DNA of 64,000 nt from the NCBI GenBank assembly GCA_017416345.1, contig JAFQCR010000018.1, positions 1 to 64,000 of the forward strand, in the 5' to 3' direction. Within the stretch, counting starts at the first letter, position 1; each line of letters opens with the position of its first letter. The DNA comes from Clostridia bacterium (GTDB lineage: Bacteria > Bacillota > Clostridia > Oscillospirales > Acutalibacteraceae). Positions 15,351-55,040 of the stretch are shown one piece after another. Under the pieces are notes generated by a model, which searched no databases, had not been told where the DNA came from, and worked only from the letters and a program-made list of their open reading frames with translations. The position numbers were made by a program, and so were the translations under genes.

Positions 15351-15535
15351 GCTCCCTCTTTGAGGGTGACTCCCCATAAAATGGGGAGATGTCACGAAGT
15401 GACAGAGGGGACCGCCGCGGTAAGTGGCTGTCGAGCGAATGCGAGACTGAGGGAGTACTCCTTCCGTCAGGCTGCGCCTGACACCTTCCTCTCAGAGGAA
15501 GGCTAAGATCCTTCGCTTACGCTCAGGATGACAGA
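15351..15535. repeat. Cluster of three REP-like elements
   Basis: At 15351-15416: CTCCCTC/GAGGG and CTCCCCAT/ATGGGGAG hairpins, then GTCAC/GTGAC, ending in AGAGGGGAC. At 15449-15504: CAGGC/GCCTG and CCTTCCTCT/AGAGGAAGG hairpins. At 15507-15535: half of the AAGATTCTTCG-type palindrome in a GATCCTTCG variant. Together with the MITE-like element this fills the gap to the AraC gene. Confidence 0.75.
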
Positions 15536-15542
15536 CAATCAA

Positions 15543-15876: not shown

Positions 15877-16725
15877 TTATTTCTTACTGTCCTTGGTCAT
15901 ATCGTCCTGCTTTGGGGATACGCCAAAGCGGTTTTTATACATACGGTAGAACGATGAATAATCCTTAAAGCCGCAGGAGGTGCAGACCTTGCCTGCCTGC
16001 TCGCCTATTCTGATACGGTTTCTCGCCGAGATCAAACGCTTGATGGTGATATACTCCCACACGCTGGTACCGGTCGCCTTTTTAAACAAACGGTTGAGCT
16101 GTGACTGACTCAAGAAGAAGCGGTCGCTCAAGGAGTTCAGCGACAGCGGCTCATAAAGATTTTTGTTGATATAGTCAATGAGCTGAAGCACCGTCTCGGC
16201 ATTGTCGTTGGAAACCTCCTCGGCACGTTCCTTTTTGGTACAATAAGCCTTATAAACCTCGCACAAAAGAGCAAACAGCTTGGCTTCGGTCTCAAGCTTG
16301 ATACCTAACGGAGTATCACCGCTGAGACTTTCAAAGCATTGCTGATACAGCTTACTTCCGAAATCCTCTTCAGAATAGCGGTTGAGCCTACCCAACGGAC
16401 GCTCGAAAAACGGCTTCATCAAAAGGCCTTCGGGATCATAGTTCTTGAAATAATTCGGGAAAAAGTGTATGACCATACGCTCGTAAGGCATATCACCCAT
16501 CACCTTTAAATTATGTGTTTCGGACGGCTGCATCAACATAACATCGCCGGGCTTTAATATGTACTCATTGCCCTCGACCGAATAACGGCAATAGCCCGAA
16601 ATGAAGTAATAGATCTCCAAACGGTCGTGAGCGTGCATAGGAAACATCTCACCGTTTTCAGGGTGCTCGGTCAAAGTATGATGGATGTGAAAATCGTCAC
16701 ATCTAAGTTCAAAAAATCTTTTCAT
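15877..16725 (-). CDS. AraC family transcriptional regulator
   Basis: About 282 residues. N-terminal cupin (about 10-130; FPMHAHDRLEIYYFISGYCRYS) and two C-terminal HTH motifs (about 185-275), ending CGFKDYSSFYRMYKNRFGVSPKQ. I chose the ATG at 16725 because a GAGG site lies 9 nt upstream; longer starts at 16734 and 16740 lack one. It diverges from the uxuA operon, the likely target, and three related 19-bp sequences in the gap are its candidate binding sites. Confidence 0.88.
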   Translation of the reverse strand: MKRFFELRCDDFHIHHTLTEHPENGEMFPMHAHDRLEIYYFISGYCRYSVEGNEYILKPGDVMLMQPSETHNLKVMGDMPYERMVIHFFPNYFKNYDPEGLLMKPFFERPLGRLNRYSEEDFGSKLYQQCFESLSGDTPLGIKLETEAKLFALLCEVYKAYCTKKERAEEVSNDNAETVLQLIDYINKNLYEPLSLNSLSDRFFLSQSQLNRLFKKATGTSVWEYITIKRLISARNRIRIGEQAGKVCTSCGFKDYSSFYRMYKNRFGVSPKQDDMTKDSKK

Positions 16726-16749
16726 ATATAACATCCTCAAATTAAATCT

Positions 16750-16928: not shown

Positions 16929-17966
16929 ATGAAGCTTACCTTCAGATGGTACGGAGACTCAGACCCCGTCACCTTGGAAAAGATTCGTCAGATACCCACA
17001 ATGTCGGGTATCGTTTCTGCTGTTTATGATGTTGCTCCCGGCGGTGTATGGAGCCGTGAAAGCATAGCTGAACTCAAGAAAAAGGCCAACGATGCAGGCC
17101 TTGAGTTTGAGGTCGTCGAGAGTGTTCCCGTTCCCGAGGATATCAAGCTCGGTAACGAGAAGGCTCCCCAGCTTATCGAAAACTATTGCGAAAACATCCG
17201 CCGTCTTGGCGAAGCAGGCGTAAAGTGTGTTTGCTACAACTTTATGCCGGTGTTTGACTGGCTGAGAAGCGAGCTTGAGCACGCCCAGCCCGACGGTGCC
17301 AATGCATTGGCTTACGACCACGCAGAGGTTCTTAAAATGGACCCCTTGAAAAGTGAGCTTTCACTCCCCGGTTGGGATGCAAGCTACACCAAGGAGGGCC
17401 TCAGAGATCTGCTTAACCAGTACAAGGAGATCGGAGAGGAGCAGCTTTGGAAGAACCTTGAGGTGTTCTTGAAGGCTGTTATTCCCGTTGCCGAGGAGGT
17501 TGGCATCAAAATGGCCATCCACCCCGACGATCCTCCGTGGGGTATGTTCGGTCTTCCCAGAATCATCACCTGTGAAGAAAACTACGACCGCTTCTTGAAG
17601 CTGGTTGACTCCCCCAATAACGGTCTGACCTTCTGTACCGGTTCTTTGGGTGCCGATCCCAACAACGATCTTGTTAAAATGGCTTCAAAGTATGCCGACA
17701 GGATCCACTTTTTACATCTTCGCAACATCAAATATGACGGTGACAGATGCTTTGAGGAGGTCGGTCATCCCACCGAGTGCGGCTCTATTGATATGTTCGG
17801 CATAGTTAAGGCACTTGTTGACAAAGATTGGGACGGATATGTAAGACCCGACCACGGACGTATGATCTGGGGCGAAAAGGGTCGCTACGGCTACGGACTT
17901 TTTGACCGTGCTTTGGGTGCAACCTATATCGCCGGTTTGTTTGAGGCTGTTGAAAAGCTTAGATAA
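16929..17966 (+). CDS. uxuA: Mannonate dehydratase
   Basis: A 345-residue enzyme that dehydrates D-mannonate to 2-keto-3-deoxygluconate in glucuronate catabolism. The sequence opens with the family start MKLTFRWYGDSDPVTLEKIRQIP and has the metal-binding segments MAIHPDDPPW (about 197-206), FCTGSLGA (about 236-243), HFLHLRN (about 258-264) and RPDHGRM (about 302-308). Length is slightly below the usual 350-390. It has a strong AAGGAGG site and is the first gene of an operon reaching 25.6 kb. Confidence 0.95.
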   Translation: MKLTFRWYGDSDPVTLEKIRQIPTMSGIVSAVYDVAPGGVWSRESIAELKKKANDAGLEFEVVESVPVPEDIKLGNEKAPQLIENYCENIRRLGEAGVKCVCYNFMPVFDWLRSELEHAQPDGANALAYDHAEVLKMDPLKSELSLPGWDASYTKEGLRDLLNQYKEIGEEQLWKNLEVFLKAVIPVAEEVGIKMAIHPDDPPWGMFGLPRIITCEENYDRFLKLVDSPNNGLTFCTGSLGADPNNDLVKMASKYADRIHFLHLRNIKYDGDRCFEEVGHPTECGSIDMFGIVKALVDKDWDGYVRPDHGRMIWGEKGRYGYGLFDRALGATYIAGLFEAVEKLR

Positions 17967-17978
17967 GGAGTGTCACTT

Positions 17979-18767
17979 ATGAGATTTGGTGTTTGTTGTT
18001 CGACTATTGATTATTATCCCAGAATTAAAGAGCTTGGATATGATTACGTTGAGGTTGGTTTTTGCCACCTCGCAACTATGGAAGATGAAAAATTTGAAGC
18101 TTTGGCCAATGCTCTTAAAGCTGTCGGACTTAAAGCCGAAGCCGCCAACGGCTTCTTCCTCGGTGACAAGGTCCTGACCGGTCCCGAGGCTGACCATTCC
18201 TTTATTCCGGAGTATACCGAAAAGGGTATGAAGCGCTTTAAGGCTCTCGGCGGCGAGGTTGCCGTTCTGGGTAGTGGTAAGGCAAGAAATATCCCCGAGG
18301 GCTTTGACTTTGCCAAGGGTGAAGAGCAGTTCATCGAGGTTTTGAGGATGGTTGGCGATATTGCCGCAAAATACGGTATCAAGATCGCTATCGAGCCGCT
18401 TCAGACCAAAGAGACCAACCTTATCAACACCGTTCAGCAGAGCCTGGACATTATTGCACGTTGCGGTCATCCCAACGTCTGCACATTGGCCGACTTCTAC
18501 CATGTTTTCAAGAACGGTGAAACCCTTGATGCCGTTGAAAACGCCGGCGAGCTGCTTATCCACACACATCTTGCCCGTGCCAATGAAGACCGTCAGATGC
18601 CGAGAACCGAAGAGGACTATGAGGTCTGCAAGATTTGGGCAAACGCACTTAAAAAGTGCGGCTACAATGCACGTATGAGCATTGAAGGCAGCTTCAAGCC
18701 CGAGTTCACCCAGACTATAGAGGATGTACTCCCTGCCCTCAAGATATTTAAAGATATTGTTGGCTAA
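17979..18767 (+). CDS. Sugar phosphate isomerase/epimerase-type TIM barrel (1 of 4)
   Basis: About 262 residues of the xylose isomerase-like/AP-endonuclease-2 TIM-barrel superfamily. Candidate metal ligands are in AIEPL (about 143), ADFYH (about 173), HTHLA (about 196) and SIEGSF (about 233). I start at ATG 17979, 8 nt after AAGGAG; an in-frame GTG at 17970 overlaps that site. Such enzymes isomerise, epimerise or dehydrate keto-sugars. The substrate is unknown. It lies 12 nt after uxuA. Confidence 0.82.
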   Translation: MRFGVCCSTIDYYPRIKELGYDYVEVGFCHLATMEDEKFEALANALKAVGLKAEAANGFFLGDKVLTGPEADHSFIPEYTEKGMKRFKALGGEVAVLGSGKARNIPEGFDFAKGEEQFIEVLRMVGDIAAKYGIKIAIEPLQTKETNLINTVQQSLDIIARCGHPNVCTLADFYHVFKNGETLDAVENAGELLIHTHLARANEDRQMPRTEEDYEVCKIWANALKKCGYNARMSIEGSFKPEFTQTIEDVLPALKIFKDIVG

Positions 18768-18791
18768 TCAACCGAAAAAGGAGAAAAAATT

Positions 18792-19616
18792 ATGAGTAAA
18801 ACTGTTGTAATCACAGGTGCAGGCGGCGTGCTTTGCTCCGCTTTTGCCGTTCACATGGCAAAGCTGGGTCACAAGGTTGCCGTTTTGGACCTTAACCTTG
18901 AGGCCGCCGAAAAGGTGGCCGCCGATATAGTTGCTAACGGCGGTGTTGCCAAGGCTTACAAGACCAATGTTTTGGACAAGGATTGCCTTAACGAGGTACA
19001 TAACGCTATCGTAAACGACCTCGGCCCTTGCGATATTCTTATTAACGGTGCAGGCGGCAACAACCCCAAGTGCACCACCCTGCACGAGACCTATCAGGAG
19101 GGCGACGACGTTGCTGAGGATTTCCTCACCTTCTTCAATCTTGACAAGGCAGGCTTCCAGTTTGTTTTTGATCTTAACATTATGGGAACACTTCTCCCCA
19201 CCCAGGTCTTTGCCAAGGATATGATCGGTAAAGAGGGCTGCTGTATCTTAAACATTTCTTCGATGAATGCTTTCCGTCCCTTGACCAAGATCCCCGCATA
19301 CAGCGCCGCAAAGAGTGCTGTAAGTAACTTCACACAGTGGTTGGCTGTCCACTTTGCCGAGACCGGTATCCGTGTCAACGCAATGGCTCCCGGCTTCTTT
19401 GTAACACATCAGAACAAGGCTCTCCTCTTTAATGAGGACGGCACCCCCACCGCCCGTACCGGCAAGATCTTGAACGCTACTCCCATGAAGCGTTTCGGCA
19501 AGCCCGAGGAGTTGCTCGGAACCCTGGAATTTTTGACCGACAGCGAGAAGTCTGCATTTGTCACAGGTGTTGTTATCCCTGTTGACGGCGGCTTCTCGGC
19601 ATATTCGGGTGTTTAA
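18792..19616 (+). CDS. uxuB: SDR oxidoreductase, likely D-mannonate oxidoreductase (fructuronate reductase)
   Basis: A 274-residue short-chain dehydrogenase. NAD-binding loop TGAGGVLC (residues 8-15), NGAGG near 80, catalytic Ser in ISSMN and YSAAK near 175. The long insertion between strands and the TPMKRFGKPEELLGTLEF end resemble the SDR-type UxuB (YjmF) of Bacillus, which reduces D-fructuronate to D-mannonate, the substrate of UxuA. Its place two genes after uxuA supports this. The gene symbol rests on that inference. Confidence 0.8.
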   Translation: MSKTVVITGAGGVLCSAFAVHMAKLGHKVAVLDLNLEAAEKVAADIVANGGVAKAYKTNVLDKDCLNEVHNAIVNDLGPCDILINGAGGNNPKCTTLHETYQEGDDVAEDFLTFFNLDKAGFQFVFDLNIMGTLLPTQVFAKDMIGKEGCCILNISSMNAFRPLTKIPAYSAAKSAVSNFTQWLAVHFAETGIRVNAMAPGFFVTHQNKALLFNEDGTPTARTGKILNATPMKRFGKPEELLGTLEFLTDSEKSAFVTGVVIPVDGGFSAYSGV

Positions 19617-19634
19617 TCTAAGGAGGAAATCATA

Positions 19635-20474
19635 ATGGCAGATTTTATTATTAACGCATTCGCTGACGAGTCGTCTTCCGAACTTCTCGGTCAGATCGAA
19701 GCAATGAAGCGTAATAACCTTCAGGGAATCGAGATCCGTAATGTCAACGGCAAGAGTATCCACAGCCACACACTTGAGGATATCAAGGAATTCGGCAAGG
19801 TTATTGAAGACAACGGCTTTAACGTATGGTCGATCGGTTCCGCACTCGGTAAGATCAAGATAACCGACGATTTTGCACCCCATCTTGACGAATTCAAGAG
19901 AACCATCGAGATGGCTCACATTCTGAAGGCTGACTACATCCGTTTGTTCAGCTTCTATATGCCCAAGGACGAGGATCCCACCCCCTACCGTGACGAGGTT
20001 TTCGAGAGAATGTCCAAATTCCTTGAAGCCGCCAAGGGTAGCGGCGTTAAGCTTTGCCATGAGAACGAAAAAGGCATTTACGGCGACATTGCTCCCCGTT
20101 GCCTTGAGATACATAAGGCAATGCCTGAGTTCGGTTGCATTTTCGACCCTGCCAACTACATTCAGTGCGGTCAGGATATCCTCTCGGGCTGGGAGCTTTT
20201 GAAGGATTACGTGACCTATATGCACATCAAGGATGCCACCGCAGAGGGCAAGATCGTTCCTGCAGGTAAGGGTATCGGCTGTCTGCCCGAGGTTCTCAAG
20301 CTGTATGCCGCTAAAGGCGGTAAGGGTCTTACCGTTGAACCCCACCTTTCTATCTTCAAGGGTCTCGCAGGACTTGAACGTGAGGGTGAAAAGACCCAAG
20401 CTGGTGTTTATCAGTACCCCACCAAGGAGGCCGCTTTTGATGCCGCAGTTGCCGCATTGAGAGAGATAATCTAA
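19635..20474 (+). CDS. Sugar phosphate isomerase/epimerase-type TIM barrel (2 of 4)
   Basis: A 279-residue xylose isomerase-like TIM barrel. Candidate metal-site segments: CHENEKG (about 141), FDPANYI (about 170), MHIKDA (about 197) and TVEPHL (about 236). It is only distantly similar to the other three barrels of the operon. The family includes hydroxypyruvate isomerase, inosose dehydratase and tagatose epimerases, so the reaction cannot be fixed. It has a strong AAGGAGG site, 18 bp after uxuB. Confidence 0.82.
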   Translation: MADFIINAFADESSSELLGQIEAMKRNNLQGIEIRNVNGKSIHSHTLEDIKEFGKVIEDNGFNVWSIGSALGKIKITDDFAPHLDEFKRTIEMAHILKADYIRLFSFYMPKDEDPTPYRDEVFERMSKFLEAAKGSGVKLCHENEKGIYGDIAPRCLEIHKAMPEFGCIFDPANYIQCGQDILSGWELLKDYVTYMHIKDATAEGKIVPAGKGIGCLPEVLKLYAAKGGKGLTVEPHLSIFKGLAGLEREGEKTQAGVYQYPTKEAAFDAAVAALREII

Positions 20475-20487
20475 GAGGTGAAGTTCT

Positions 20488-21249
20488 ATGAAATTAGGCG
20501 CACAACTGTTTACGGTGCGTGAGTTTTGCAAAGACCTTGACGGTTTTGCAGATTCGCTTAAGAGATTGGCCGATATCGGTTATTCAACCGTTCAAATCAA
20601 CGGCTCTTGTGTATTTGAAGCCGAATGGTTAAAAGAACAGTGTGATAATATTGGTATTGAGTGTCTTATGCCTACCGTACCGGGGCTTAATGTTGCCGTT
20701 GACACCGAAAAGGTTATCGAAAATCACAAGATAATCGGTTCAAAATACGTTAGTGCCGGCCACGTCAACACACGAAAGGTTGGGGCCCAAGGCTTTGTGG
20801 ATCAGTACCGCGAACCGATCAAAAAGCTTCGTGAAGCAGGTCTGATGCTGTTAAGGCACAATCATGATCACGAATTTTTGCGTGAAGCCAACGGTAAGAT
20901 AAGCCAGCAAAATCTCGCCGATCTGATCGCACCTGAAGACATGGGCTTTGTTCTCGATCTTTATTGGGTGCAGGCAGGCGGCGGCGACCCTATCTGGTGG
21001 TTAAACAACCTTAAAGGCCGCACACCCGTTGTGCACTTCAAGGATATGGGCTACGGACTTGTTGACGGCGAATACAGCCGCAAGATGGCCGCTATCGGCG
21101 AAGGCAATATGAACTACGAGGGCATTATCGAAGCCTGCTACAACAACGGCGTTGAGTATACAGTTGTCGAGCTTGACCATTGCTACGGCGAAGACCCGTT
21201 TGAATGCCTTAAACGCAGTTACAACTATCTTAAGGACAAAATCAAATAA
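20488..21249 (+). CDS. Sugar phosphate isomerase/epimerase-type TIM barrel (3 of 4, tandem pair)
   Basis: A 253-residue TIM barrel. Candidate ligands: RHNHDHEF (about 129), LDLYWVQAGGGDPIWW (about 153), VHFKDM (about 182) and VELDHCYGEDPF (about 230). It is a clear tandem paralogue of the next gene, sharing the IGAQ/LGAQ start, EFCK, GGGDPIWWLN, IGEGNMN and CYGEDPF blocks. The fold is as in IolE-like dehydratases and C-glycoside-deglycosidase subunits. The substrate is unknown. Confidence 0.83.
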   Translation: MKLGAQLFTVREFCKDLDGFADSLKRLADIGYSTVQINGSCVFEAEWLKEQCDNIGIECLMPTVPGLNVAVDTEKVIENHKIIGSKYVSAGHVNTRKVGAQGFVDQYREPIKKLREAGLMLLRHNHDHEFLREANGKISQQNLADLIAPEDMGFVLDLYWVQAGGGDPIWWLNNLKGRTPVVHFKDMGYGLVDGEYSRKMAAIGEGNMNYEGIIEACYNNGVEYTVVELDHCYGEDPFECLKRSYNYLKDKIK

Positions 21250-21261
21250 GGAGTGACATTT

Positions 21262-22011
21262 ATGCAAATAGGCGCACAGTTTTATACCATCCGTGAGTTT
21301 TGCAAAACCACCGACGGTATTGCGGAATCACTCAAAAAAGTAGCCGACATAGGTTATAAAACAGTTCAGATTTCAGGCACCTGTGCATTCGATGCCGAGT
21401 GGATGAAGGAAGAGCTTCGCAAAAACGGCTTGAAGTGTGTCATTACCCACACCAAGCCCGAACGTATCGTCGGCGAGACCGAAAAAGTTATTGAAGAACA
21501 TAAAACCTTCGGCTGTAATCGCATCGGCATCGGTCATTACGATGTTGCAAAAAACGGCGTTCAGGCCTTTATCGAATATTATAAGGAAGCCGCAAAGCTG
21601 ATAAAGGAAAATGGCCTTTTCCTTTCCTATCACAACCACGATGCAGAATTCATGAAAACAGACGGTAAGCTTATACTCGACCAAATCATTGATGCCTTCA
21701 AGCCCGACGAAATGGGCATTACGCTTGACACCTATTGGGTACAGTCGGGCGGCGGTGACCCCATTTGGTGGTTGAATAAACTTAAAGGCAGAACTCCTTG
21801 CATCCACTTAAAGGATATGGCTTTTGTCGAAAAAGAACGCCGAATGGCCGTTATCGGCGAAGGTAATATGAACTTTGAAGGTATTATCAAAGCCGCAATC
21901 GACAACGGTGTCGACTACGCACTCGTTGAGCAGGACAACTGCTACGGTGAAGATCCGTTCGATTGCTTGAAGAGAAGCTATCAGTACTTAAAGGCTCAGG
22001 GCCTTGAATAA
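21262..22011 (+). CDS. Sugar phosphate isomerase/epimerase-type TIM barrel (4 of 4, tandem pair)
   Basis: About 249 residues, starting MQIGAQFYTIREFCK at the ATG 8 nt after AAGGAG; the in-frame GTG at 21253 overlaps that site. It carries the same key blocks as its neighbour: YHNHDAEF, LDTYWVQSGGGDPIWW, IHLKDM, IGEGNMNFEG and VEQDNCYGEDPF. Duplication followed by divergence suggests two related substrates or successive steps. The next gene starts 16 nt after its stop. Confidence 0.83.
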   Translation: MQIGAQFYTIREFCKTTDGIAESLKKVADIGYKTVQISGTCAFDAEWMKEELRKNGLKCVITHTKPERIVGETEKVIEEHKTFGCNRIGIGHYDVAKNGVQAFIEYYKEAAKLIKENGLFLSYHNHDAEFMKTDGKLILDQIIDAFKPDEMGITLDTYWVQSGGGDPIWWLNKLKGRTPCIHLKDMAFVEKERRMAVIGEGNMNFEGIIKAAIDNGVDYALVEQDNCYGEDPFDCLKRSYQYLKAQGLE

Positions 22012-22027
22012 ATTGGAGGTAATTACA

Positions 22028-23203
22028 ATGGCAGACAAAATTAAACTTGGTATTATCGGTATCGGTAATATGGGTAGCGGTCACGCAAAGAGCATTGCTA
22101 TCAACAATACCAATGCCGAGATCGAGCTTGTGGCAGTAGCCGATATCAAGCCCGAGCGCCGTCAGTGGGCAAAGGATACTCTCCCTGAAACGGTCAAAAT
22201 TTTTGAGACCGCAGAGGAAATGCTGGATAGCGGTCTTATCGACTCCTGTCTTGTTGCAGTTCCCCACTACGATCATCCCAAATATGCTATCGAATGCTTC
22301 AAGCGTCATATCCACGTTCTTGTTGAGAAGCCTGCAGGCGTTTACACCAAGCAGGTCAAGGAAATGATCGAGGCAGCAAAGCAGACCGATACCACCTTTG
22401 CTATGATGTTCAATCAGCGTACCAACTGCATCTACAGAAAGATGCGTGAGTTGGTTCAGAGTGGTGAATACGGCGAGATCAAGCGTACCAACTGGATCAT
22501 CACCAACTGGTACCGTCCTCAAGTTTATTATGATTCGGGCGATTGGAGAGCAACCTGGTCGGGTGAAGGCGGCGGTGTCCTTTTGAACCAGTGCCCCCAT
22601 CAGCTTGACCTGTGGCAGTGGATCTGCGGTATGCCTTCAAAGATCCAGGCACACCTCCACTACGGTAAGTGGCACGACATCGAGGTTGAAGACGATGTTA
22701 CCGCTTATGTTGAGTATCCCAACGGCGCAACCGGTACCTTTATCACCACCACCGGTGACAACCCAGGTACCAACCGTTTTGAGATCACTCTTGACCGTGC
22801 AAAGATCGTTGCCGAGGGCGACAAGCTTATGATCTGGGAGCTTCCCATGAACACCAGTGAGTTCACCAAAACCGCTACAACTCCCTTCCAGAGCCAGAAG
22901 GCCGAATACCGTGAGGTTGAGACCGACGGTATGAACGAGCAGCACAAGGGTGTCCGTGATGCATTCGCCGCACACATCCTGCACGGCACTCTCCTTACCG
23001 CAGGCGGTGAGGAGGGCATCAACGGTCTTACCATCTCCAACGCAATGCATTTGTCGTCCTGGTTGGGTAAAATGGTTGACATTCCGTTTGACGATGAGTT
23101 ATACTATAATGAGCTTATGAAGCGTGTCGCCGGTTCAAGACGTAAGACCAACGTCACCGAGGTTACCGCCGATACCGAGTCTTCGTATGCAGGAACAAAG
23201 TAA
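22028..23203 (+). CDS. Gfo/Idh/MocA family oxidoreductase (1 of 2)
   Basis: About 391 residues. Rossmann NAD(P)-binding start LGIIGIGNMGSGHA, the family motif EKPAGVYTKQ (about 105-114), and a C-terminal beta domain with GEGGGVLLNQCPHQLDLWQW (about 181-200) containing the His usually used in catalysis. I use the ATG at 22028, which has a GGAGG site; an earlier in-frame ATG at 22004 lies within the previous gene. The family oxidises sugars or inositols at ring carbons, or transfers hydride within a glycoside. It is paralogous to the gene at 23326. Confidence 0.87.
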   Translation: MADKIKLGIIGIGNMGSGHAKSIAINNTNAEIELVAVADIKPERRQWAKDTLPETVKIFETAEEMLDSGLIDSCLVAVPHYDHPKYAIECFKRHIHVLVEKPAGVYTKQVKEMIEAAKQTDTTFAMMFNQRTNCIYRKMRELVQSGEYGEIKRTNWIITNWYRPQVYYDSGDWRATWSGEGGGVLLNQCPHQLDLWQWICGMPSKIQAHLHYGKWHDIEVEDDVTAYVEYPNGATGTFITTTGDNPGTNRFEITLDRAKIVAEGDKLMIWELPMNTSEFTKTATTPFQSQKAEYREVETDGMNEQHKGVRDAFAAHILHGTLLTAGGEEGINGLTISNAMHLSSWLGKMVDIPFDDELYYNELMKRVAGSRRKTNVTEVTADTESSYAGTK

Positions 23204-23227
23204 TAAGGTTTAATCAAGGCGATTGTA

Positions 23228-23278
23228 CCTCCCTCTGACGAGGGAGGTGGCATTCGCTTTGCGAATGTCGGAGGGAGA
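23228..23278. repeat. Two-hairpin REP-like repeat between the two oxidoreductase genes
   Basis: CCTCCCTC/GAGGGAGG stem, then GCATTCGC/GCGAATGT stem, then CGGAGGGAG. It is the same layout as the copies near 31.7 and 47.3 kb. It sits inside the operon and might cause partial termination or protect the upstream mRNA. Confidence 0.8.
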
Positions 23279-23325
23279 GATACTTCCGAAATTGGCAAAA
23301 CGAGTGCTTTTTAAGGGGTGTTATT

Positions 23326-24501
23326 ATGGAAAAGGTAAGAGTAGGCGTTATTGGTTTCGGTAATATGGGCTCGGCTCATGCCAAGCACATTTATGACGGT
23401 CTGATAAACGGTATGGAATTGGTTGCCGTTTGCGATACCGATGAAGCAAAACGAGAAAAGGCCAAGGCGGCTTTTCAGAATGTTGAGGTCTTTGCGTCTC
23501 ACCGGGAGCTTTTAAAGGCAGGCCTTACCGATGCCGTAATCATCGCAACCCCTCACTATTTCCATTGCCCTATTGCTATTGATGCATTTAACGCAGGTCA
23601 GCACGTTTTAAGTGAAAAGCCTGCAGGCGTTTACACCAAGCAGATACTTGAAATGAACGAGGCCGCCAAAAAGAGCGGTAAGATATTTGCAATAATGTTC
23701 AATCAGCGCACCAATATGCTATTCAAAAAAGCCCACGACATGGTGCAAAACGGCGAACTGGGTGAGCTGAAACGAATGGTGTGGATCATCACCAACTGGT
23801 ACCGCACTCAGCATTATTACGATTCAGGAAGTTGGAGAGCCACCTGGGCAGGTGAAGGCGGCGGTGTTCTTTTGAATCAGGCACCCCACAACCTTGACAT
23901 CTGGCAGTGGATCTGCGGTCTGCCCAAGAGGGTACGTGGCTTTTGCTCGGTCGCAAAGTATCACCACATTGAGGTCGAGGATGATGCCACCATCTATGCC
24001 GAATACGAAAACGGCGCAACCGGTATTTTTATCACCTCAACAGGTGAGGCTCCCGGCACCAACCGCCTTGAGATCGGCGGAACAAAGGGTAAATTGGTTA
24101 TCGAGGGCGGAAAAATGACCGTCACAAAGCTCAAGGTCGATGAACGTGAGTTCTGCTTTGACTGTGAGGATAATTTTTCTACCATTCCCTCAGAGGTCGA
24201 GGTCATTGAGCAGACCGAAAAGGAAAGCGCTCACATGGGCATTTTGCGCAATTTCACCAATGCAATCCTGCACGGAGAGGCTCTTCTTTCCCCCGGCTAT
24301 GACGGTATAAACGAGGTTCAGCTTTCCAATGCCGCTTACCTTTCTTCGTGGAAGGACAAGTGGGTCGAAATTCCCGTGAATGCTGATGAATATTACGAGG
24401 AACTGCGCAAAAAAGCTGAAAATTCCGAGCTCCACGAAGGAATCAAGAACGACAAGCATGCAGATATGAAATATAGCGAGCGCTGGAGCGTAAGGTGGTA
24501 A
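23326..24501 (+). CDS. Gfo/Idh/MocA family oxidoreductase (2 of 2)
   Basis: A 391-residue paralogue of the preceding oxidoreductase: VGVIGFGNMGSAHA nucleotide-binding start, EKPAGVYTKQ, YYDSGSWRATWAGEGGGVLL and APHNLDIWQW, with the catalytic-type His. The two differ mainly in the C-terminal third. Keeping two copies in one operon with duplicated TIM barrels suggests paired redox steps, for example oxidation of one sugar and reduction of the product. Substrate unknown. Confidence 0.87.
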   Translation: MEKVRVGVIGFGNMGSAHAKHIYDGLINGMELVAVCDTDEAKREKAKAAFQNVEVFASHRELLKAGLTDAVIIATPHYFHCPIAIDAFNAGQHVLSEKPAGVYTKQILEMNEAAKKSGKIFAIMFNQRTNMLFKKAHDMVQNGELGELKRMVWIITNWYRTQHYYDSGSWRATWAGEGGGVLLNQAPHNLDIWQWICGLPKRVRGFCSVAKYHHIEVEDDATIYAEYENGATGIFITSTGEAPGTNRLEIGGTKGKLVIEGGKMTVTKLKVDEREFCFDCEDNFSTIPSEVEVIEQTEKESAHMGILRNFTNAILHGEALLSPGYDGINEVQLSNAAYLSSWKDKWVEIPVNADEYYEELRKKAENSELHEGIKNDKHADMKYSERWSVRW

Positions 24502-24546
24502 AGCCATTGCGTTTTAATATTGGCAATACTTTTTGAGGTGTCTTTT

Positions 24547-25608
24547 ATGAATTTTTCCGAAAGCATAAACAAGGAAATTGAGCGTGTTATTGAAAAATTG
24601 ACCGCTGTAACCGACAAAAATGCCGTAAATTACGCCATTGTGACCGACACGCATTACGATACACAGCAATCTGTGGGAACACCCGAAATTGTTGATAATT
24701 CGGTGAAAATCATCCGTCTGCTTGCCGAAAAAGGTCTGATCGACTTTGCAGGTCATTGCGGCGATATCACCACAGGTTGGAGAAGCGGAGATTCCTGCAG
24801 AAAGTACACCAAGATCGTTGCCGATCTGTTTTCCGATTTCCCCTGCCCTGTTGTTTTCACAATTGGCAATCACGATTTCAACCACAACCCCGAGACCTTA
24901 AAGGAAGGCGCACATTCCTACACTTTAAACGATGAAAAAAATCCCGAGCTGCTTGACCACGCTGAATGGTATGACCTTACCCAGAAAAACTTCCGCAAGG
25001 ACAGCTTTATTTACGACGAAGCAATGCCCGGTTCACTCTATTTTTACTTTGATATTCCCGAGAAAAAGGCACGTGTGGTATGCCTTGAATCGTTTTATTG
25101 CCGTAATGTCGAAAAGCAGGTACGCTTCATTGCCGAAAAGGTGCTGACCGTAAAGGATGAGGGCGTAAAATATGTATTTTTGTCTCACGCACCGATCGAC
25201 AACCGCTACGAGGAGGGCAAAATGCACCACGTTTGTGCAGGTGCCGACGACCTTAAAAGGTTGATCACCGCACTTAACAACCGCACCGTTGCCCAAACCT
25301 CGGTCGGTACATACGATTTCAGCGACTATGCTTCAAATGCCGTCGCCTTTAACTGTGGTCATATGCACTCATCTTACGTCGAGTTCAACCGTGACCTTAA
25401 AATGTTCCACGCAACCTCGGGTCAGACGGGTGTTGTGGGAAGCGGTCATTTCCGTGAGGTCGAAGCCGATGACAATGCCACCGGTCGTCACAAACTGACC
25501 AACGATGACGCCAACCGCTATTTGTTTGACATTGTCAGCGTGACGCCCGAAAAATACGAGCGCATCCGCTTCGGAAACGGACTTGACAAAACGGTCAATG
25601 CCGAATAA
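24547..25608 (+). CDS. Metallophosphoesterase family protein
   Basis: About 353 residues. Calcineurin-like motifs in order: VTDTHYD (about 32), GHCGDITTG (about 70), TIGNHDFNHN (about 102), LSHAPIDN (about 211) and NCGHMHSS (about 280). It has no signal peptide. The ATG at 24547 follows a GAGGTG site; an upstream in-frame ATG at 24520 has none. It closes the uxu operon. It may remove a phosphate from a sugar intermediate, but phosphodiester or 5'-nucleotide substrates are equally possible. Confidence 0.83.
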   Translation: MNFSESINKEIERVIEKLTAVTDKNAVNYAIVTDTHYDTQQSVGTPEIVDNSVKIIRLLAEKGLIDFAGHCGDITTGWRSGDSCRKYTKIVADLFSDFPCPVVFTIGNHDFNHNPETLKEGAHSYTLNDEKNPELLDHAEWYDLTQKNFRKDSFIYDEAMPGSLYFYFDIPEKKARVVCLESFYCRNVEKQVRFIAEKVLTVKDEGVKYVFLSHAPIDNRYEEGKMHHVCAGADDLKRLITALNNRTVAQTSVGTYDFSDYASNAVAFNCGHMHSSYVEFNRDLKMFHATSGQTGVVGSGHFREVEADDNATGRHKLTNDDANRYLFDIVSVTPEKYERIRFGNGLDKTVNAE

Positions 25609-25630: not shown

Positions 25631-25670
25631 AGATCCTTCGGTCACTCACAGCCGAAGGATCTTTTTTTCT
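25631..25670 (+). terminator. Strong rho-independent terminator of the uxu operon
   Basis: AGATCCTTCGG pairs exactly with CCGAAGGATCT around a 10-nt loop and is followed by TTTTTTT. Confidence 0.88.
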
Positions 25671-25871: not shown

Positions 25872-28800
25872 ATGAGAACATTCAAGCGCGCAATTTCCAT
25901 CATTACTGCCTTGGCGATTTTGGTTATGACCTTCTCGTTTTTAGGTCTTATGCCGGTATCTGCTGAGGTCACCGCCCCCGAGGGTTATGAGATCGCAGAG
26001 CAGATCAAGATCGATTTCAACACCGATGGTAATGGCTGGTCGGGTACTAACGGAACAAAGGGAACCCACATAGACCAGATCACCGACCCTGATGACAGCT
26101 CCAACAAGTATATGTATCTGTATACTCCCAACGGTAACGGCTACAATATGGAGTTGGCTAACAGCAGTACATCAACAACCGCTTATGAAATGACTGCAAG
26201 CACCAAATACTCAATTGAGTTCAAGGTCAAGGTCGCCAGCTATACAAAAGCCGAAAACCAAATAGCTATTTGCTTTGGTACGCAGGCGGGATATAACGCT
26301 AACCTTGCAAAGCCGGTCATGAATACATGGACAGTTGACAAATTGTCAACCGAGGCTTGGACTACCGTATCTTATGAGTGGACCACTACCGAAACAATGC
26401 TGGCAAATACCTACGCTTCTTCAACAAGTAAAACCAATTTGTGTAACCGTATTTACCTTGTTGCTAACAACGGTTCATCTGCCGCCGCCTACTATATCGA
26501 TGATGTAGTTATCACAAAGTATAGGGAAATTTCCGCTTCCACCCCCAAAAATCAGATCACTTATATCAACTTCAACACCGAGGGCAAGGGCTGGTCGGAT
26601 ACCAACGGTTCGTCTTACCTTACGCAGGTAACCGATACCGAAGACAGCACCAACAAGTATATGACCCTTCACACCCCCAACGGTGACGGTTATAATATGG
26701 AGCTCGCTTCGGGAAGCAACTCCGATACCGCTTACATTCTCGAAGGCAGTACAAAATATCTTTTGACCTTCAAATACAAGGCGCTTGATTCGGCCTCAGG
26801 TAATCTTTCACTTTATTACGGTTCGATCTCTGCATATAAGAGCTCTAACCCCAAATACGGTCCGCTTACATCCTGGGCTGCAAGCTCGGCCAACGACGGC
26901 GAGTGGCATACCGCTACATACGAGTTCACCACCACCGAAACAATGACCTATGCTTCCTATAAAGGCAGCGGCAGTACCACCGTTTGTGACAATCTTTATC
27001 TTGTTGCACGCAGTAATCAGAACACCTGGGCCATTGACGATGTTGAGATAAAGAAGTATGTTGAGGGTGCAACGGAGGACGAGTATGTTGACGGAATTGC
27101 TCCCGACAGCGGTGAAGGCTCCGGCGATTCCGGCGAAGAGGAGACAGAAAAAGAAATGTATACTATCCCCGATTTCACGCACGAGCCTTATAAGACCTAT
27201 GCCGCACCCGATTCCTACAGCGGCACCTGGTACTGCTCGGTTCGTTGGTCTACCTACACCGAAGGCACCAACAGCGTAATGCGCTACAAGTTCGCATACG
27301 ACATTTCCGAAGAGGCCGCTTCCACCTCGGGTAAGCGTGGCACCACAGCCAAGGGTACCAACGGAAGCCAGCACGCTATGATGTGCCTTGTTGACGATGA
27401 TAACCCCTCGGTTCCTCTGTATGTAACACAAAACAAGTCCTACCGAGTATCCTTTAAATACAAGGTCACCGATGTTGAGCTCAACTCCTTTGTTTCGTTC
27501 AACATTATGAGAGGTCAGTATTCTTCGAGCTGGACCGGTTCTTCGGGCATCGGAAGCTCGACCGACAAGGACGCTGACCGCTATATTATTGCGATCGAAT
27601 ATGCTCCTACCGACGGTTGGGTAGACGCATACTACACATTTACCGCCAACTATACCACCAACCTTGAGCGCAACGTATTCCAGATCGGCGGTGCAGGCTA
27701 CGGCGATGCACTTATCGACGACATCAAGATCGAAGAGATCGATGCCTCCGAAGTCGAGCCGGTCAATAACGACGCCTCTAAATACGACTACTCGGTCAAC
27801 GGTCAGCAATCAAGCATCAACTCTTACAAAGGCAAGGATGCCGACCTCACTATTACCCACGTTATCGGCAGAAGACAGCTTACCTCCATAAATAAGTACG
27901 CCTTCCTTTATAACCGTTACGTAAAGAACATTGTTATCGAAAACGGCCCCACCACTATCGGCAACTACGCTTTTGAATATGCCAAGGTGCTTGAAACCAT
28001 CAGCATCCCCGCTTCGATAACCACCATCGGCAAGGGCGCATTCTACGGTATCAAGACCATGAAGGCCTTTACCGTTGATTCCGCAAGCGAAAGCTTTGCA
28101 TCGGTCGACGGCGTTTTGTACACCAAGGATATGAAGACCCTCTTGTACTACCCCGCCGCCAAGGATGCAACAACCTTTACCGTTCCTGCAGGCGTTACCG
28201 CCATTGCGGAAGGTGCTTTCCTTAACGCAACCAAGCTGCAGACAATCATCCTTCCCGACGGACTTACCACCATTGAGCGCCGTGCATTTATGAACTGCAC
28301 CGCACTCACCTCCATCAACATTCCCGAGACCGTCACCTCGGTCGGTTCTTCGGCTTTGAGAAACTGCTCGGCCTTGACCGCCGACGGAATCTCCATTGCT
28401 GACGGCCTTGCCGTCGGCGAAAACGCATTCACCGATTCTGCCACCTACACCGTCGGCAGCACCAGCGGTGATACCACCGTTGACGTTAAGGATGCAACGC
28501 TCCTTGCCAAGCACCTTGCCGGCTTTAAGGATTCCGACCTTGGCCGTTTTGGTGAGATGGCCGCCGATATCAATGGCGACGGCAATGTTGACATGCTTGA
28601 CGCAGTACTTCTCAAGCGTCACCTTGCAGGCTGGAAGGGCTATAAGTCCCTTCCCTACACCGGACTTGACGATACTACCTATGAGGAGTATGTTACTGAC
28701 AGCGAAACTCCCGAGCTGGTTGTAAATCTTTCCGAGAAGAACAGCCAGAAGGTCACACCTAAGCGTGACATCAACTACGACCCCAACAAGGAAGATATCA

Positions 28801-29969
28801 TCATCATCCTTATCACCGGTCAGTCCAACTCGGGTACCGGCGGTTACAGACAGGAATACGAATACAAGTACACTACTAACCACGGTGGCGCTGCACATCC
28901 CAATTGGGAGATCACTGCAGAGCCTACCCGTCCCGATGAAGGTACCGTATTCTTCGGCGCAACCGTAACTGCACTTAACGACGCAAACGACGTATACTAT
29001 ATGACCGATGCCGCATCGCTTGGTGCCTCCACGATGGGCGGTTACTCGCCTGCAATGGGTAAAGCTCTGCATGATGCAACCGGTGCTAAAATAGTGTTTG
29101 TTCAGGCTTCAAAGGGTGCTGTCGGTATGCACGAATGGACCCCCGAGCCTGAAAAGTACGAGTGTCCCTGCGGTGAAAACGGCGGCGGCAAGCTTTACAG
29201 CAACGCAATCGCCAACTTCACCAAGACCTATCAGGCACTTGAGGATGACTACAACATCATCGCAACCGCTTACGTTTTCAACCAGGGCGAGCACGAAGAA
29301 CTTAAGACCTACGTTGCCGAAAGCGCAACCGTGCACGATGACCAAACCTACTACAACGCATTGCTCGAAATGCACAACGGCTTCCTTTCGGAGTGTGAGA
29401 TCGATTGCGGCGGCGTATTCCTCCCCCGTTCGTGGTGGAACCGCTACGGTTTGAGCGGAAGTGACGACATTCCTCAGAACAGCCGCCGTCCGTCCATCGC
29501 ACGTGCCGCACAGTATGCCGCTTCGCAGAATGTTGAAAACTTCTTCATCTTCTCCAACGTTTCCGAGGAGATCTGCAAGGCAGGCCCCTTGAAGCCCGAC
29601 CCCACCAACTCCATCCACTACGGTATGGCCGCATACAATGCGATCGGCGCACAGAACGGTGACAGCGTTGCCAAGTACTTTGGCTTCCTGGATGCTTCCG
29701 AGCTTACCGGAATTAAGGTATTCAACAAGATAGGCGTTGAGCTTTGCGCTTTTGACGCAAACGGAAACCTTGTTTCGGGCAGCGACGTCGTTGAGTTCTC
29801 GGATGACAACTCCAAGCTGTATATCAGAATTGACCCCACGGGTACAATGTACACTCTGAACTACAGCTCGGCCGGAACCACTACCGATTTTGTAGACGAC
29901 TTCGGCATTATCACCTCGGTCGAGGGTCAGACATCCTTTAAGATCGTCATCAACCCTCCCGTTAAGTAA
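25872..29969 (+). CDS. Secreted multidomain protein: carbohydrate-binding-like repeats, BspA-type LRRs, dockerin and SGNH/SASA esterase
   Basis: A 1365-residue exported protein. Signal peptide 1-33. Two similar beta-sandwich modules (about 37-190 and 195-400; both contain GYNMELA and STKY). A third sandwich (about 430-635). BspA-like leucine-rich repeats (about 640-855; TTIGNYAFEYA, TTIGKGAFYG, AIAEGAFLNA). A dockerin (about 862-922) in which the second Ca loop DINGDGNVDMLD is intact and the first is degraded. Then a SASA/SGNH esterase domain (about 970-1260) with GQSN near 983, NQGEHEE near 1137 and SIHYG near 1247. It probably removes acyl groups from glycans and docks to a cohesin. The internal dockerin is unusual. 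Confidence 0.85.
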   Translation: MRTFKRAISIITALAILVMTFSFLGLMPVSAEVTAPEGYEIAEQIKIDFNTDGNGWSGTNGTKGTHIDQITDPDDSSNKYMYLYTPNGNGYNMELANSSTSTTAYEMTASTKYSIEFKVKVASYTKAENQIAICFGTQAGYNANLAKPVMNTWTVDKLSTEAWTTVSYEWTTTETMLANTYASSTSKTNLCNRIYLVANNGSSAAAYYIDDVVITKYREISASTPKNQITYINFNTEGKGWSDTNGSSYLTQVTDTEDSTNKYMTLHTPNGDGYNMELASGSNSDTAYILEGSTKYLLTFKYKALDSASGNLSLYYGSISAYKSSNPKYGPLTSWAASSANDGEWHTATYEFTTTETMTYASYKGSGSTTVCDNLYLVARSNQNTWAIDDVEIKKYVEGATEDEYVDGIAPDSGEGSGDSGEEETEKEMYTIPDFTHEPYKTYAAPDSYSGTWYCSVRWSTYTEGTNSVMRYKFAYDISEEAASTSGKRGTTAKGTNGSQHAMMCLVDDDNPSVPLYVTQNKSYRVSFKYKVTDVELNSFVSFNIMRGQYSSSWTGSSGIGSSTDKDADRYIIAIEYAPTDGWVDAYYTFTANYTTNLERNVFQIGGAGYGDALIDDIKIEEIDASEVEPVNNDASKYDYSVNGQQSSINSYKGKDADLTITHVIGRRQLTSINKYAFLYNRYVKNIVIENGPTTIGNYAFEYAKVLETISIPASITTIGKGAFYGIKTMKAFTVDSASESFASVDGVLYTKDMKTLLYYPAAKDATTFTVPAGVTAIAEGAFLNATKLQTIILPDGLTTIERRAFMNCTALTSINIPETVTSVGSSALRNCSALTADGISIADGLAVGENAFTDSATYTVGSTSGDTTVDVKDATLLAKHLAGFKDSDLGRFGEMAADINGDGNVDMLDAVLLKRHLAGWKGYKSLPYTGLDDTTYEEYVTDSETPELVVNLSEKNSQKVTPKRDINYDPNKEDIIIILITGQSNSGTGGYRQEYEYKYTTNHGGAAHPNWEITAEPTRPDEGTVFFGATVTALNDANDVYYMTDAASLGASTMGGYSPAMGKALHDATGAKIVFVQASKGAVGMHEWTPEPEKYECPCGENGGGKLYSNAIANFTKTYQALEDDYNIIATAYVFNQGEHEELKTYVAESATVHDDQTYYNALLEMHNGFLSECEIDCGGVFLPRSWWNRYGLSGSDDIPQNSRRPSIARAAQYAASQNVENFFIFSNVSEEICKAGPLKPDPTNSIHYGMAAYNAIGAQNGDSVAKYFGFLDASELTGIKVFNKIGVELCAFDANGNLVSGSDVVEFSDDNSKLYIRIDPTGTMYTLNYSSAGTTTDFVDDFGIITSVEGQTSFKIVINPPVK

Positions 29970-48952: not shown

Positions 48953-49354
48953 CTAGCTTGGATAATAACACACTATACTTTTATTTGTTGGATTGGGGCT
49001 TTCGGCATTATATGTGCATAAAAACTCGACTCTGTCGTCAAAAAAATCCACTTTTGATCTACCTGATTTTATGCAATAGTACGCATCAAGATCAAAAGTA
49101 ACCCCTATCTTCTTCATTTTTCCGTTGCTATATTTGTAATAAAATTCTGTACTACTTTGGGTAAGATACGTCCAACTTTTTACTACTATTTTTGATTCAC
49201 TGTTTGGAATATCAATACATATTTCTTCATCTAAATAGTTCACGTTAAGCAATTCGTTGTCGACCAAAAGATAGCGGTATGCCAATATCGCGCTAATAGC
49301 CAAAATACATACGACAACACAAACACAAACCGCTGTTTTAATTCCCTTTCTCAT
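48953..49354 (-). CDS. Small membrane-anchored protein of unknown function
   Basis: About 133 residues, starting MRKGIKTAVCVCV. One N-terminal membrane helix or uncleaved signal (about 5-28) is followed by a soluble beta-rich domain with CIDIPNSESKIVVKSW and STEFYYKYSNGKMKKIG. It is not recognised. The ATG at 49354 has a GGGAGAG site and overlaps the 3' end of the large secreted protein gene by 17 bp, so translation is probably coupled. This position fits an accessory, chaperone or immunity-like partner of the large protein (inference). Confidence 0.65.
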   Translation of the reverse strand: MRKGIKTAVCVCVVVCILAISAILAYRYLLVDNELLNVNYLDEEICIDIPNSESKIVVKSWTYLTQSSTEFYYKYSNGKMKKIGVTFDLDAYYCIKSGRSKVDFFDDRVEFLCTYNAESPNPTNKSIVCYYPS

Positions 49355-52300
49355 CTTGTATTCTCTCCCAAATATAATCGGTAAAAGCACTAGCTACTGC
49401 GTCAGCCTGCGTTACGCTCACCTCAAATTCTCTAAGCAGAGGCCAATCGACCATTAGAAAGAACTCGTTATCTGTGTAATAGCGTGCGCAAACATATATT
49501 TCACTCTTAGTCCAACCATTTGTAAAATCGGTAAAGCGCGTTTCTATTCCTGTGCTATAGTAAGACGTGAAAGTTGCTACAGGATTAGAAACATTTATTA
49601 TATTCCAAATATTGTAAGCATCAGTATCAGCCAACAAGTCGGACATACTGAAGTAAGAATCTGTTTCCGACTCTGCACCTAACAGTAAGTATGCTCTATT
49701 ATAAATTTCTTCGGCATCGTTTGAATAATTTGTTTCTATTAACACTTGATTAACCAAAGTTTGCAAATCTCCTGCCCAACCACATAAATCATCCACACTC
49801 GATTCTCCAACAACAAACGCTTTAAATCCTGTAGAATCGTACAACAAACCATTCAGTACAGCACACAAGTGCACAAAATCAATTTCGCCTAAACCACTTG
49901 GGCATCGAACCAGCATTTGTGCACTCAAATCGCCCTCTTTCAGTACGGTGAAATAGTTATATATGTCCGGATTATTAGCTTGGACATAAGCCACAAAACT
50001 AGCATCTATTGTTCCGGCAACAGTATTCCAATTGTAATCATTATAATACCCTCTTCTTATAAATTGCAGAGCTAGCATCAATGCCGAACTATCTGATATA
50101 TCTTCATAATGAGAATTTGCGATATTAAACAAGATTTGCAAGTTTTCTAAAACATCTGGTAAAGAACTATCTACACTAATGTTAAATGCGTTCGCATAAC
50201 CAGTAACTTTATGAACAGCTGTGACAGTGCAATCATATCGTTTTAGTGCCGTTATGGTTGAACGTTCGTTGTCTATTTCAATCGGATTCAAGCTATGACT
50301 GTAACTATAAATAAAATCATACGAATTAACCCATAAAAAATTTTCACCTTCTGAGCAAACTGTCGGTTTTTTAACCTCATTAACATCAATCGTCATACCA
50401 TTCATTGAAAAATCAGAAGATAATTCAACGCTACTATAATTTGATGAACTTCCATACTCATCAATACTCACAATACGCCAGCAGGCATCGGCGGTGGTGT
50501 CGGTAACCTCACCTGTTGATTGGTCGAAAAAACAATCTCCGGCATCAACACGGGTTTTGAGATGACCACCGCCGTCAATATACAAATATCTGTTGTTATA
50601 TCGGCTTTTCAAAAAGCATCCGTTGCTTGCCAATACTATATCCCAAACATAGTTATATGTTCCAAGGACATCCGGTGCACTCAAAAGAACACTGTCGGAG
50701 GTATATCCGGCAGGCACGGCAAGCATTTGGTTTGTATCACCTAAATTTTGCAATACATATCCGTCACTGAACTCGGTTAAGATCCATTGGATGCTTGTTC
50801 CTAAATCGGCCAACAAACCGGATTGTGCATCGGCTGCGCCATTTGTGTTTTTTAGATATCTGCCGTATTCACGGTTGTTCAGGTAAAAAGTTCCGCTCGG
50901 CACAACTTCTGCATATCCTGCAACGGTATAACTCTTCGCAGATAGCAATTCATAGCAATCGTTAGGGTCGCTGCGGCTTCCTCCGGGAGCTATTGCTATT
51001 GCTCTGACTGTATACTGACCCGGGGTGCATTCTGACCAATCAAGCGTACAGTAGAATCCGTAATTTCCCGAGTCATAACCCGCCTGAGCAACATCAGGAC
51101 GAGGCCTGTTTGCGATACATTCTTTTACAAAAACCTGACCTGTCGAGTTGTTGGTCATTTCTACTCTTACGGTACAAGCCTCGTCGGGGGCGTCAACGCA
51201 CCAGGCCCAGCCGCTTGCGTACGTGTCGGTCACGGTATCAAACCAGCCGAAGGGTCTGGCGTTATCGCTGTTGGAGTTATCATACTCAACAGTAATTACC
51301 GGTCTTTTATTCGGATCCAAATGATTAAATGATGCAAACCTGTTATAATTAGTCACGCCTGCGGCTTCAACACTATCCTCTGCCCTGAACAGAATTCCTT
51401 GCCCAACAGCGGTCGGTGAATCTATGCAGCATTTAATATAATCAAGTATATCAAAGGTATACCACATATGAGTAGTGTTTATTCTGTTCTGTGACAAAAA
51501 ATGCGTGTACGAATTTGCATTGACATTTGTCCATGTTACCGTTTCTTCTTCCCACTCATTACCGGTAAACATATATGCTATAGCCTTAATAGGAGCGTGG
51601 CTTGGTGAATTATTATACAACCGCACATTGGCACTGATAATTTTCTTTGAATCTAAAACATCTGCCAAAATCAGCCCCGGAAATTTCATCAAAACACGTG
51701 ACACACCGTATCCCTCACGGTAACCAACATACAATTGATTCTCATCGGCGTTTGAGCCTGCCAAGCTGTTTATGGTAACATCCTGAACAGCAGGCACTTC
51801 ATCACGAATACCAACCGTCGGGTCGATGCGGATGGGGTAAGCTGTTTTTTCGTCAGCCAACCACTCGGCATCAACGTGGATAGTCAGCTCATATTCCTTG
51901 TTTTTCTTTATTTCTTTATGGGTCATATAGCCCATTGTGTTATTTGCACCATCGGCCGTGGTGATGATGATATCACCCAAATGTGCCTTGGTCTCACCCT
52001 TTTTATCGGTGAGATAATACGAACCGTTCGATTCGCACAAGGTCAGTCCGTTTGTCTCAAGCGTGAACACGTACTCGGTCTGACCCGTATACTCAGAAAC
52101 AACTATATCCTCTTTAAAACCGGTATAGGTCAAACTGTATTCAATTCTTGTACTGTTATTATAATAATACGAAAGTCTCTTTTTGTCAAGTTTTGTTACA
52201 TTCACAGAACTTGCATCGGGTTCAACCGTCACCTTTTTGGGCTTTGCACCCTTGCTTTGGTCGGCAAGTGAATAAAGCAAGGTATTGGTCAGCTGTGTAT

Positions 52301-52835: not shown

Positions 52836-52892
52836 TTTCTTCTCTCCTTATTTTGTTATTTGTGGCAATTTGTGGTATATATTACCGACCAT

Positions 52893-52921
52893 ATTCCACC
52901 TCGTTTGGCATAATTTGTCAA
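52893..52921 (-). promoter_or_regulatory. Possible promoter of the large secreted protein gene
   Basis: On the minus strand, perfect TTGACA (52921-52916), 17-bp spacer and weak TGGAAT (52898-52893). The ATG is about 58 nt downstream with an AGGAGAG site. Confidence 0.45.
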
Positions 52922-53195: not shown

Positions 53196-53209
53196 CTTTG
53201 CTGAAGAGA

Positions 53210-53252: not shown

Positions 53253-53286
53253 GAAATTACTGTTTAAGACTTGATCTTATTCAGGC

Positions 53287-55032: not shown

Positions 55033-55040
55033 CTACTGTA

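Follow-up and report, generated by a model that had tools for sequence, protein, structure and literature searches.

A candidate stepwise route for glucuronide cleavage without a hydrolase, encoded together with glucuronate-pathway genes in a Clostridia bacterium

What does a bacterium break down with an operon that joins uronate genes to oxidoreductases and isomerase-like barrels and has no glycoside hydrolase? This question is raised by nine plus-strand genes at positions 16929–25608 of a 64,000-nucleotide stretch of contig JAFQCR010000018.1 from a Clostridia bacterium (the window, meaning the whole stretch analysed). The original prediction was that uxuA, a UxuB-like short-chain dehydrogenase/reductase (SDR), four further TIM barrels, two Gfo/Idh/MocA oxidoreductases and a phosphoesterase act here by oxidation and elimination, without a hydrolase, and feed the mannonate/2-keto-3-deoxygluconate (KDG) pathway. 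We found all nine genes, in the order uxuA, TIM1, SDR, TIM2, TIM3, TIM4, gfo1, gfo2 and phosphoesterase, and no glycoside hydrolase among them; homology supports the predicted route and allows it to be narrowed. The operon probably cleaves D-glucuronides by a stepwise 3-keto route, converting them through glucuronate to KDG.

The two oxidoreductases point to the substrate. In a search of all PDB chains, the top match of both was 8tdi, named 'P2B11 Glucuronide-3-dehydrogenase', which Gfo1 (22028–23203) matched at E 1.6e-103 with 46% identity and Gfo2 (23326–24501) at E 3.1e-94 with 44% identity, near full length over approximately 365 residues; the next matches, 3q2i and 3q2k, were at E ~1e-31. 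All three proteins have the motifs EKPAGVY, NQRTN and GEGGGVL.NQ.PH.LD.WQWICG. In a tree of 160 Gfo sequences (FastTree, midpoint root), P2B11 grouped with Gfo1 and 87 Gfo1 homologues (support 0.97), and Gfo2 formed a separate paralogue clade with 41 homologues (support 0.78). Relatives of the solved P2B11 (E 1e-150) were present in two of 394 genomes of the order, with 66% and 71% identity. Because both of these loci hold TIM2, a TIM4-type barrel (23% and 31% identical to the eliminase AtOGE) and a second Gfo, they appear to occupy the same setting; one of them additionally has UxaC, an SDR, an AraC gene and a 37% homologue of a KDG-kinase-like protein. Gfo1 is therefore best described as a candidate glucuronide 3-dehydrogenase.

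The tandem barrels TIM3 (20488–21249) and TIM4 (21262–22011) both matched PDB entries 8bvk, 8tct, 8tcs and 8tcd. The available text on 8BVK (PMC10628242) identifies it as the O-glycoside beta-eliminase AtOGE, in which His132, Asp163, His189 and, weakly, Glu233 bind the metal and His134 is catalytic. H127, D159, H185, E226 and H129 of TIM4, and H124, D157, H183, E228 and H126 of TIM3, align with AtOGE H132, D163, H189, E233 and H134, respectively, and these five residues are invariant across the 21 rows of our alignment (A3). Identity to AtOGE is 27–31% (31% for TIM4). Because the AtOGE residues match, TIM3 and TIM4 are better called eliminases than isomerases, and we dropped the isomerase reading for them; the four predicted barrel isomerases thus stand as four barrels of which two lose the label. 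TIM4 is a candidate 3-keto-glucuronide beta-eliminase, and TIM3 may be a second one. All four barrels besides UxuA belong to PF01261, with TIM3 barely passing the Pfam cut-off (31.4 versus 31.1 bits). By BLAST among the window proteins, TIM3 and TIM4 are 54% identical and Gfo1 and Gfo2 50%, and no further paralogous pair was detectable among the operon proteins, so the predicted duplication is borne out for the oxidoreductases and for this barrel pair, but does not extend to TIM1 and TIM2.

LgdA of the levoglucosan pathway is a Gfo protein. The available text on that pathway (PMC7676230) describes 3-oxidation by LgdA, elimination by LgdB1, hydration by LgdB2 and reduction by LgdC; the annotation is sugar phosphate isomerase for both LgdB1 and LgdB2, and Gfo/Idh/MocA protein for LgdC. 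In the operon studied here, Gfo1 with NAD+ would oxidise C3 of the glucuronosyl ring, rendering the proton at C2 acidic. TIM4, or TIM3 as a second version, would abstract that proton with a catalytic His and a His/Asp/His/Glu metal site, so that the aglycone leaves C1. The product would be a 2-hydroxy-3-keto-glycal uronic acid, to which TIM2 would add water, and Gfo2 would reduce the resulting 3-keto-glucuronate to glucuronate. As Gfo2 would spend the NADH of the first step, the sum would be a redox-neutral hydrolysis. UxaC would then form fructuronate, the SDR mannonate and UxuA KDG. Two Gfo enzymes and two kinds of barrel sit in one unit, as a stepwise cassette requires. Because the cassette has the parts of the levoglucosan pathway together with a glucuronide-type dehydrogenase, stepwise redox-neutral glucuronide cleavage is the best reading, in which we infer from sequence each catalytic step, the division of labour between Gfo1 and Gfo2, TIM2 as the hydratase and the identity of the aglycone. 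TIM2 (19635–20474) as a single query had no PDB match at 0.001, and a profile of 23 homologues matched 8ro4, '2-hydroxy-3-keto-glucal hydratase', marginally (E 0.008). E143, D171, H197 and E235 of TIM2 are kept in 23 of 23 homologues, and a hydratase function is plausible but weakly supported.

Consistent with a glucuronate product, two operon genes encode enzymes of glucuronate breakdown. UxuA, the mannonate dehydratase that converts mannonate to KDG (16929–17966; PF03786, 470 bits), and the UxuB-type SDR, a fructuronate reductase or mannonate oxidoreductase (18792–19616), pass NCBIfam cut-offs (NF003027, 477 bits, cut-off 191; NF006132, 425 bits, cut-off 281), whereas TIM1 to TIM4 and both Gfo proteins reach the cut-offs of general Pfam domains but of no NCBIfam model. 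UxaC is encoded elsewhere in the window's genome (contig C25; NF002794, 626 bits, cut-off 387) and inside the operon in some relatives. Gfo2 as a query at E 1e-80 matched 74 of 200 genomes of the window's family (carriers). UxaC (PF02614, E 1e-30) was found in 74 of 74 carriers compared with 38 of 126 non-carriers (Fisher p 1e-26), and in 51 of 51 compared with 24 of 84 when one genome per genus was kept, the only step that handles kinship in these counts (p 6e-19).

We observed directly the gene content, homology, active-site residues and co-occurrence described above, as well as the neighbourhoods of the cassette in relatives, which we annotated using profiles of the window genes and of UxaC. 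The family set comprises 43 loci: 42 places from the Gfo2 search, mostly best matches, and one same-genus place, with the own-genome loci L078–L080 left out. Gfo1 was present in 38, TIM2 in 29, the SDR in 21, TIM4 and Gfo2 in 20 each, AraC in 19 (at least 150 bits), UxuA in 18, UxaC in 11 and TIM1 in 10, and 23 had at least one of UxuA, SDR and UxaC. A second Gfo, sometimes a distant one, accompanied Gfo1 in 26 of 38 loci over the whole stretch and in 25 within 3 kb. The named set consists of the best 80 of at least 569 loci found with a TIM4 query, so that TIM4 is present in 80 of 80 by construction; 57 have Gfo1, 50 TIM2, 35 Gfo2, 60 either Gfo and 19 a uronate gene. Four named loci share contigs with the family set, and the two sets of counts are not additive. 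Named loci are mostly metagenome-assembled genomes labelled Clostridia, Oscillospiraceae, Lachnospiraceae or Christensenellaceae, many with animal-gut sample names. The gene set is more than chance, since its members are found together in relatives too.

A second TIM3/TIM4-type barrel of at least 150 bits was found in none of the 43 family and none of the 80 named loci; at 60–100 bits each set has one such locus, L051 and L119. The closest relative (L038, which is also L098) has TIM2 adjoining TIM4 and no second TIM3/TIM4-type barrel that reaches 150 bits, and its other genes keep the same order, including the phosphoesterase, which occurs in no other related locus. We had considered a 453–463-aa gene of the relatives as a transporter; this was rejected, as the gene is uxaC, with NF002794 above cut-off in L042 and L041. 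When neighbouring genes were clustered, five families reached seven loci, namely KDPG (2-keto-3-deoxy-6-phosphogluconate) aldolase, PfkB kinase, deaminase, RecR and DnaX. The aldolase is above its NCBIfam cut-off, and aldolase and kinase are present together in six loci, which fits the pathway.

The layout of the window bears on the regulation and limits of the operon. A divergent AraC-family gene (15877–16740, minus strand; cupin sensor and helix-turn-helix domain, PF02311 and PF12833) is the probable regulator. Consensus matching found no plus-strand promoter-like site between it and uxuA. We used ATG starts at 17979 (TIM1), 21262 (TIM4), 22028 (Gfo1) and 24547 (phosphoesterase), which leaves gaps of 12, 24, 18, 13, 12, 16, 122 and 45 nucleotides in gene order. 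The predicted unbroken run from uxuA and the SDR into the barrels needs two amendments: TIM1 separates uxuA from the SDR, making the latter the third gene, and the widest gap, between gfo1 and gfo2, is preceded by a promoter-like site (23076–23105, 11/12, a consensus match only). The same gap contains a CTCCCTC/GAGGGAG hairpin-type stretch (23229–23290), a 21-mer of which occurs once in the window even with three mismatches allowed; by eye, a similar stretch lies beyond the AraC gene at about 15360–15540. TIM1 (17979–18767) is a ketose-3-epimerase-like barrel with E-D-H-E motifs, nearest to TM0416 (IolO) and allulose/tagatose epimerases, that misses the equivalog cut-offs (best score 74 of 300 bits). 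Action on a hexulosonate is a guess, and TIM1 may epimerise such a compound on the side. The last gene encodes a calcineurin-type phosphoesterase (24547–25608; PF00149) and is followed by an intrinsic-terminator-like hairpin on the same strand (25631–25662; 12 pairs and a T run, a consensus match only). This hairpin is only suggestive, because the region has 12 terminator-like sites compared with 11.0 in shuffled sequence, that is, no excess. The gene directly downstream (25872–29969) encodes 1365 aa with a dockerin domain and leucine-rich repeats of BspA type, which suggests a surface or cellulosome-like protein. Further away (49338–57881, minus strand) are a 1165-aa protein with CBM96, a solute-binding protein and a 946-aa protein for which no Pfam match was found at 1e-5.

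Elsewhere in the same genome, contig C2 carries a uronate locus (L094:2511-12375) with GH115, UxaC, GH94, SDR, UxuA-family and GH39 genes and a divergent AraC gene; this second UxaC is below the NCBIfam cut-off. On contig C3, one frame (L079:4948-6843) encodes a 631-aa fusion of an AP_endonuc_2 barrel and a Gfo/Idh/MocA dehydrogenase, possibly a one-chain oxidation-elimination enzyme, approximately 680 nucleotides upstream of a GH38-type gene. On the minus strand of contig C27 (L080:1364-7122), a PF01261 barrel is followed by three consecutive Gfo/Idh/MocA genes whose products are 24–31% identical to Gfo2, with another barrel gene divergent. This is a candidate second 3-keto-type cluster.

Several observations weigh against glucuronide cleavage by this operon. 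The substrate of P2B11 is taken from its PDB name only, and P2B11 sits on a long branch in the tree; Gfo2 is, by analogy, a candidate 3-keto-glucuronate reductase. AsbF (1.9e-14), Art22 (2.9e-13) and three other structures come ahead of 8ro4 in the TIM2 profile search, making the first two its nearest solved relatives and the hydratase match a marginal one. No UxuA, SDR or UxaC is nearby in 20 of 43 family and 61 of 80 named loci, some of them short stretches, and part of the family may therefore serve other glycosides. An AraA control was also enriched in carriers, if much less than UxaC (28 of 74 versus 15 of 126, p 3e-5): carriers are generally richer in sugar genes, yet in this sample UxaC is missing from no carrier. 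The deaminase, RecR and DnaX families, which are housekeeping, reach seven loci too, all from one seven-locus set, and the recurrence number of the aldolase and kinase is not remarkable by itself. The PfkB kinase is nearest to KDG-kinase models, reaches no equivalog cut-off and is similar to IolC as well. Hydrolase genes lie near some cassettes (GH3 in L057 and L131, GH42 in L039). Within the operon there is no transporter gene, and the promoter-like site before gfo2 makes a single transcript less than certain. In the window's genome uxaC is outside the operon; as the genome has UxaC and KDPG-aldolase-family genes, released glucuronate is probably usable all the same. That genome also has three GH2 genes, GH2 being the one glucuronidase family searched. 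One scores 128 of 544 bits with the beta-glucuronidase model, the second is nearest to GalA but under its cut-off (758 of 900), and the third lies on C13 at 121770. This genome may have glucuronide routes besides the cassette.

How else might these genes be read? The same stepwise chemistry could act on a uronic acid carried by an oligosaccharide, such as an aldobiuronic acid from glucuronoxylan or gum, instead of a small-molecule conjugate. We regard this as a real, if lesser, possibility, favoured by the separate GH115 uronate locus, by a same-genus relative from yak colon that suggests a plant-fibre setting, and by the GH3 and GH42 genes near some related cassettes. Against it, the GH115 locus already provides a hydrolytic route, the operon itself lacks a hydrolase, and among the neighbour clusters, of which 11 of 30 were named by family search, only one is a hydrolase, the GH3 family that recurs in three loci. 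It is also conceivable, though rather unlikely, that both Gfo proteins are dehydrogenases of differing specificity, for example for alpha- and beta-glucuronides, each with its own eliminase (TIM3 or TIM4), and that reduction is one of them run backwards. P2B11 is at a similar distance from Gfo1 and Gfo2, which have the same motifs, and the window has two eliminase-like barrels; however, because a second Gfo is frequent in relatives and a second TIM3/TIM4-type barrel of at least 150 bits absent from all 43 family loci, having two Gfo proteins does not go with having two eliminases.

The original prediction had also allowed for inositols and C-glycosides, and neither fared well. The best NCBIfam matches of Gfo2 and TIM4 are named IolG and IolE, and the kinase of the relatives matches IolC below cut-off, as might be expected if an IolG-like dehydrogenation were followed by an IolE-like dehydration. 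We consider inositol catabolism extremely improbable, as the Gfo proteins score 87 and 126 bits (the latter Gfo2) against an IolG cut-off of 355, TIM4 scores 45 against an IolE cut-off of 290, and P2B11 is far closer. Cleavage of a C-glycoside or C-glucuronide as in DgpABC, which draws on the same two superfamilies, seems very unlikely as well: DgpA is a distant match, much weaker than P2B11, and the barrels resemble AtOGE, which has a single type of subunit. A small second subunit was not found in the operon, where, in a search confined to it, no leftover same-strand open reading frame of at least 100 aa remains except one inside TIM1. The glucuronide arm of the prediction is the one that gained support, from P2B11, the AtOGE residues, the uronate genes of related loci and the presence of UxaC in every carrier.

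Microbes that strip glucuronic acid from drugs, hormones and bile pigments make these compounds active again, an activity generally identified with beta-glucuronidase. If hydrolase-free glucuronide cleavage occurs in many Clostridia, as the 74 of 200 family genomes with such Gfo proteins would allow, surveys of beta-glucuronidase genes would give too low a count of this activity, and removal by the cassette might withstand inhibitors of beta-glucuronidase. The link to UxaC, UxuA and UxuB could serve to mark glucuronide cassettes apart from neutral-sugar ones in genomes. A bolder and doubtful extension is that gut Clostridia widely strip glucuronides independently of beta-glucuronidase by a route wired to the KDG pathway and missed by such surveys, that the eliminase has split into TIM3 and TIM4 in the window's lineage for different aglycones or anomers, and that TIM1, as a hexulosonate 3-epimerase, salvages product that the reduction leaves with the wrong C3 configuration.

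The proposed chemistry is already known from levoglucosan breakdown, AtOGE and DgpABC. Nasseri et al. (Nature 2024, 631:199-206) reportedly described an alternative pathway of glycan breakdown, to which study 8tdi presumably belongs; P2B11 shares its fold, motifs and 44–46% identity with Gfo1 and Gfo2, whereas the window genes stand in an operon with UxuA, UxuB and two eliminase-like barrels. TIM3 and TIM4 keep all five active-site residues of AtOGE from the AtOGE/AtHYD system, but AtOGE acts on 3-keto-glucosides and its own operon ends in glucose, not glucuronate, in the available text (PMC10628242). The levoglucosan pathway (PMC7676230) has the same four roles as the cassette, with oxidoreductases at both ends and two proteins annotated as sugar phosphate isomerases, but differs in its anhydrosugar substrate; Gfo1 and Gfo2 score 47 and 75 bits with the levoglucosan dehydrogenase equivalog (cut-off 650), and 40 and 53 bits with that of the glycoside 3-dehydrogenase BT_2158 (cut-off 750). 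Puerarin C-deglycosylation by DgpABC, as available accounts have it, likewise proceeds by 3-oxidation and then elimination, and is set apart by its small partner subunit and distant DgpA. As far as we have seen, the new elements are the wiring to the glucuronate pathway, the spread of the cassette and the second eliminase-like barrel; among the titles listed in a literature search there was no account of coupling to UxaC, UxuB and UxuA or of the spread, which is weak evidence of novelty. The hexuronate (Ashwell) pathway runs through UxaC, UxuB, UxuA, KdgK and KdgA. UxuA and the SDR of the operon are above NCBIfam cut-offs for it, and some related loci also have UxaC, KDPG aldolase and a KDG-kinase-like gene; the window differs in coupling a putative glycoside-cleaving front end to this pathway.

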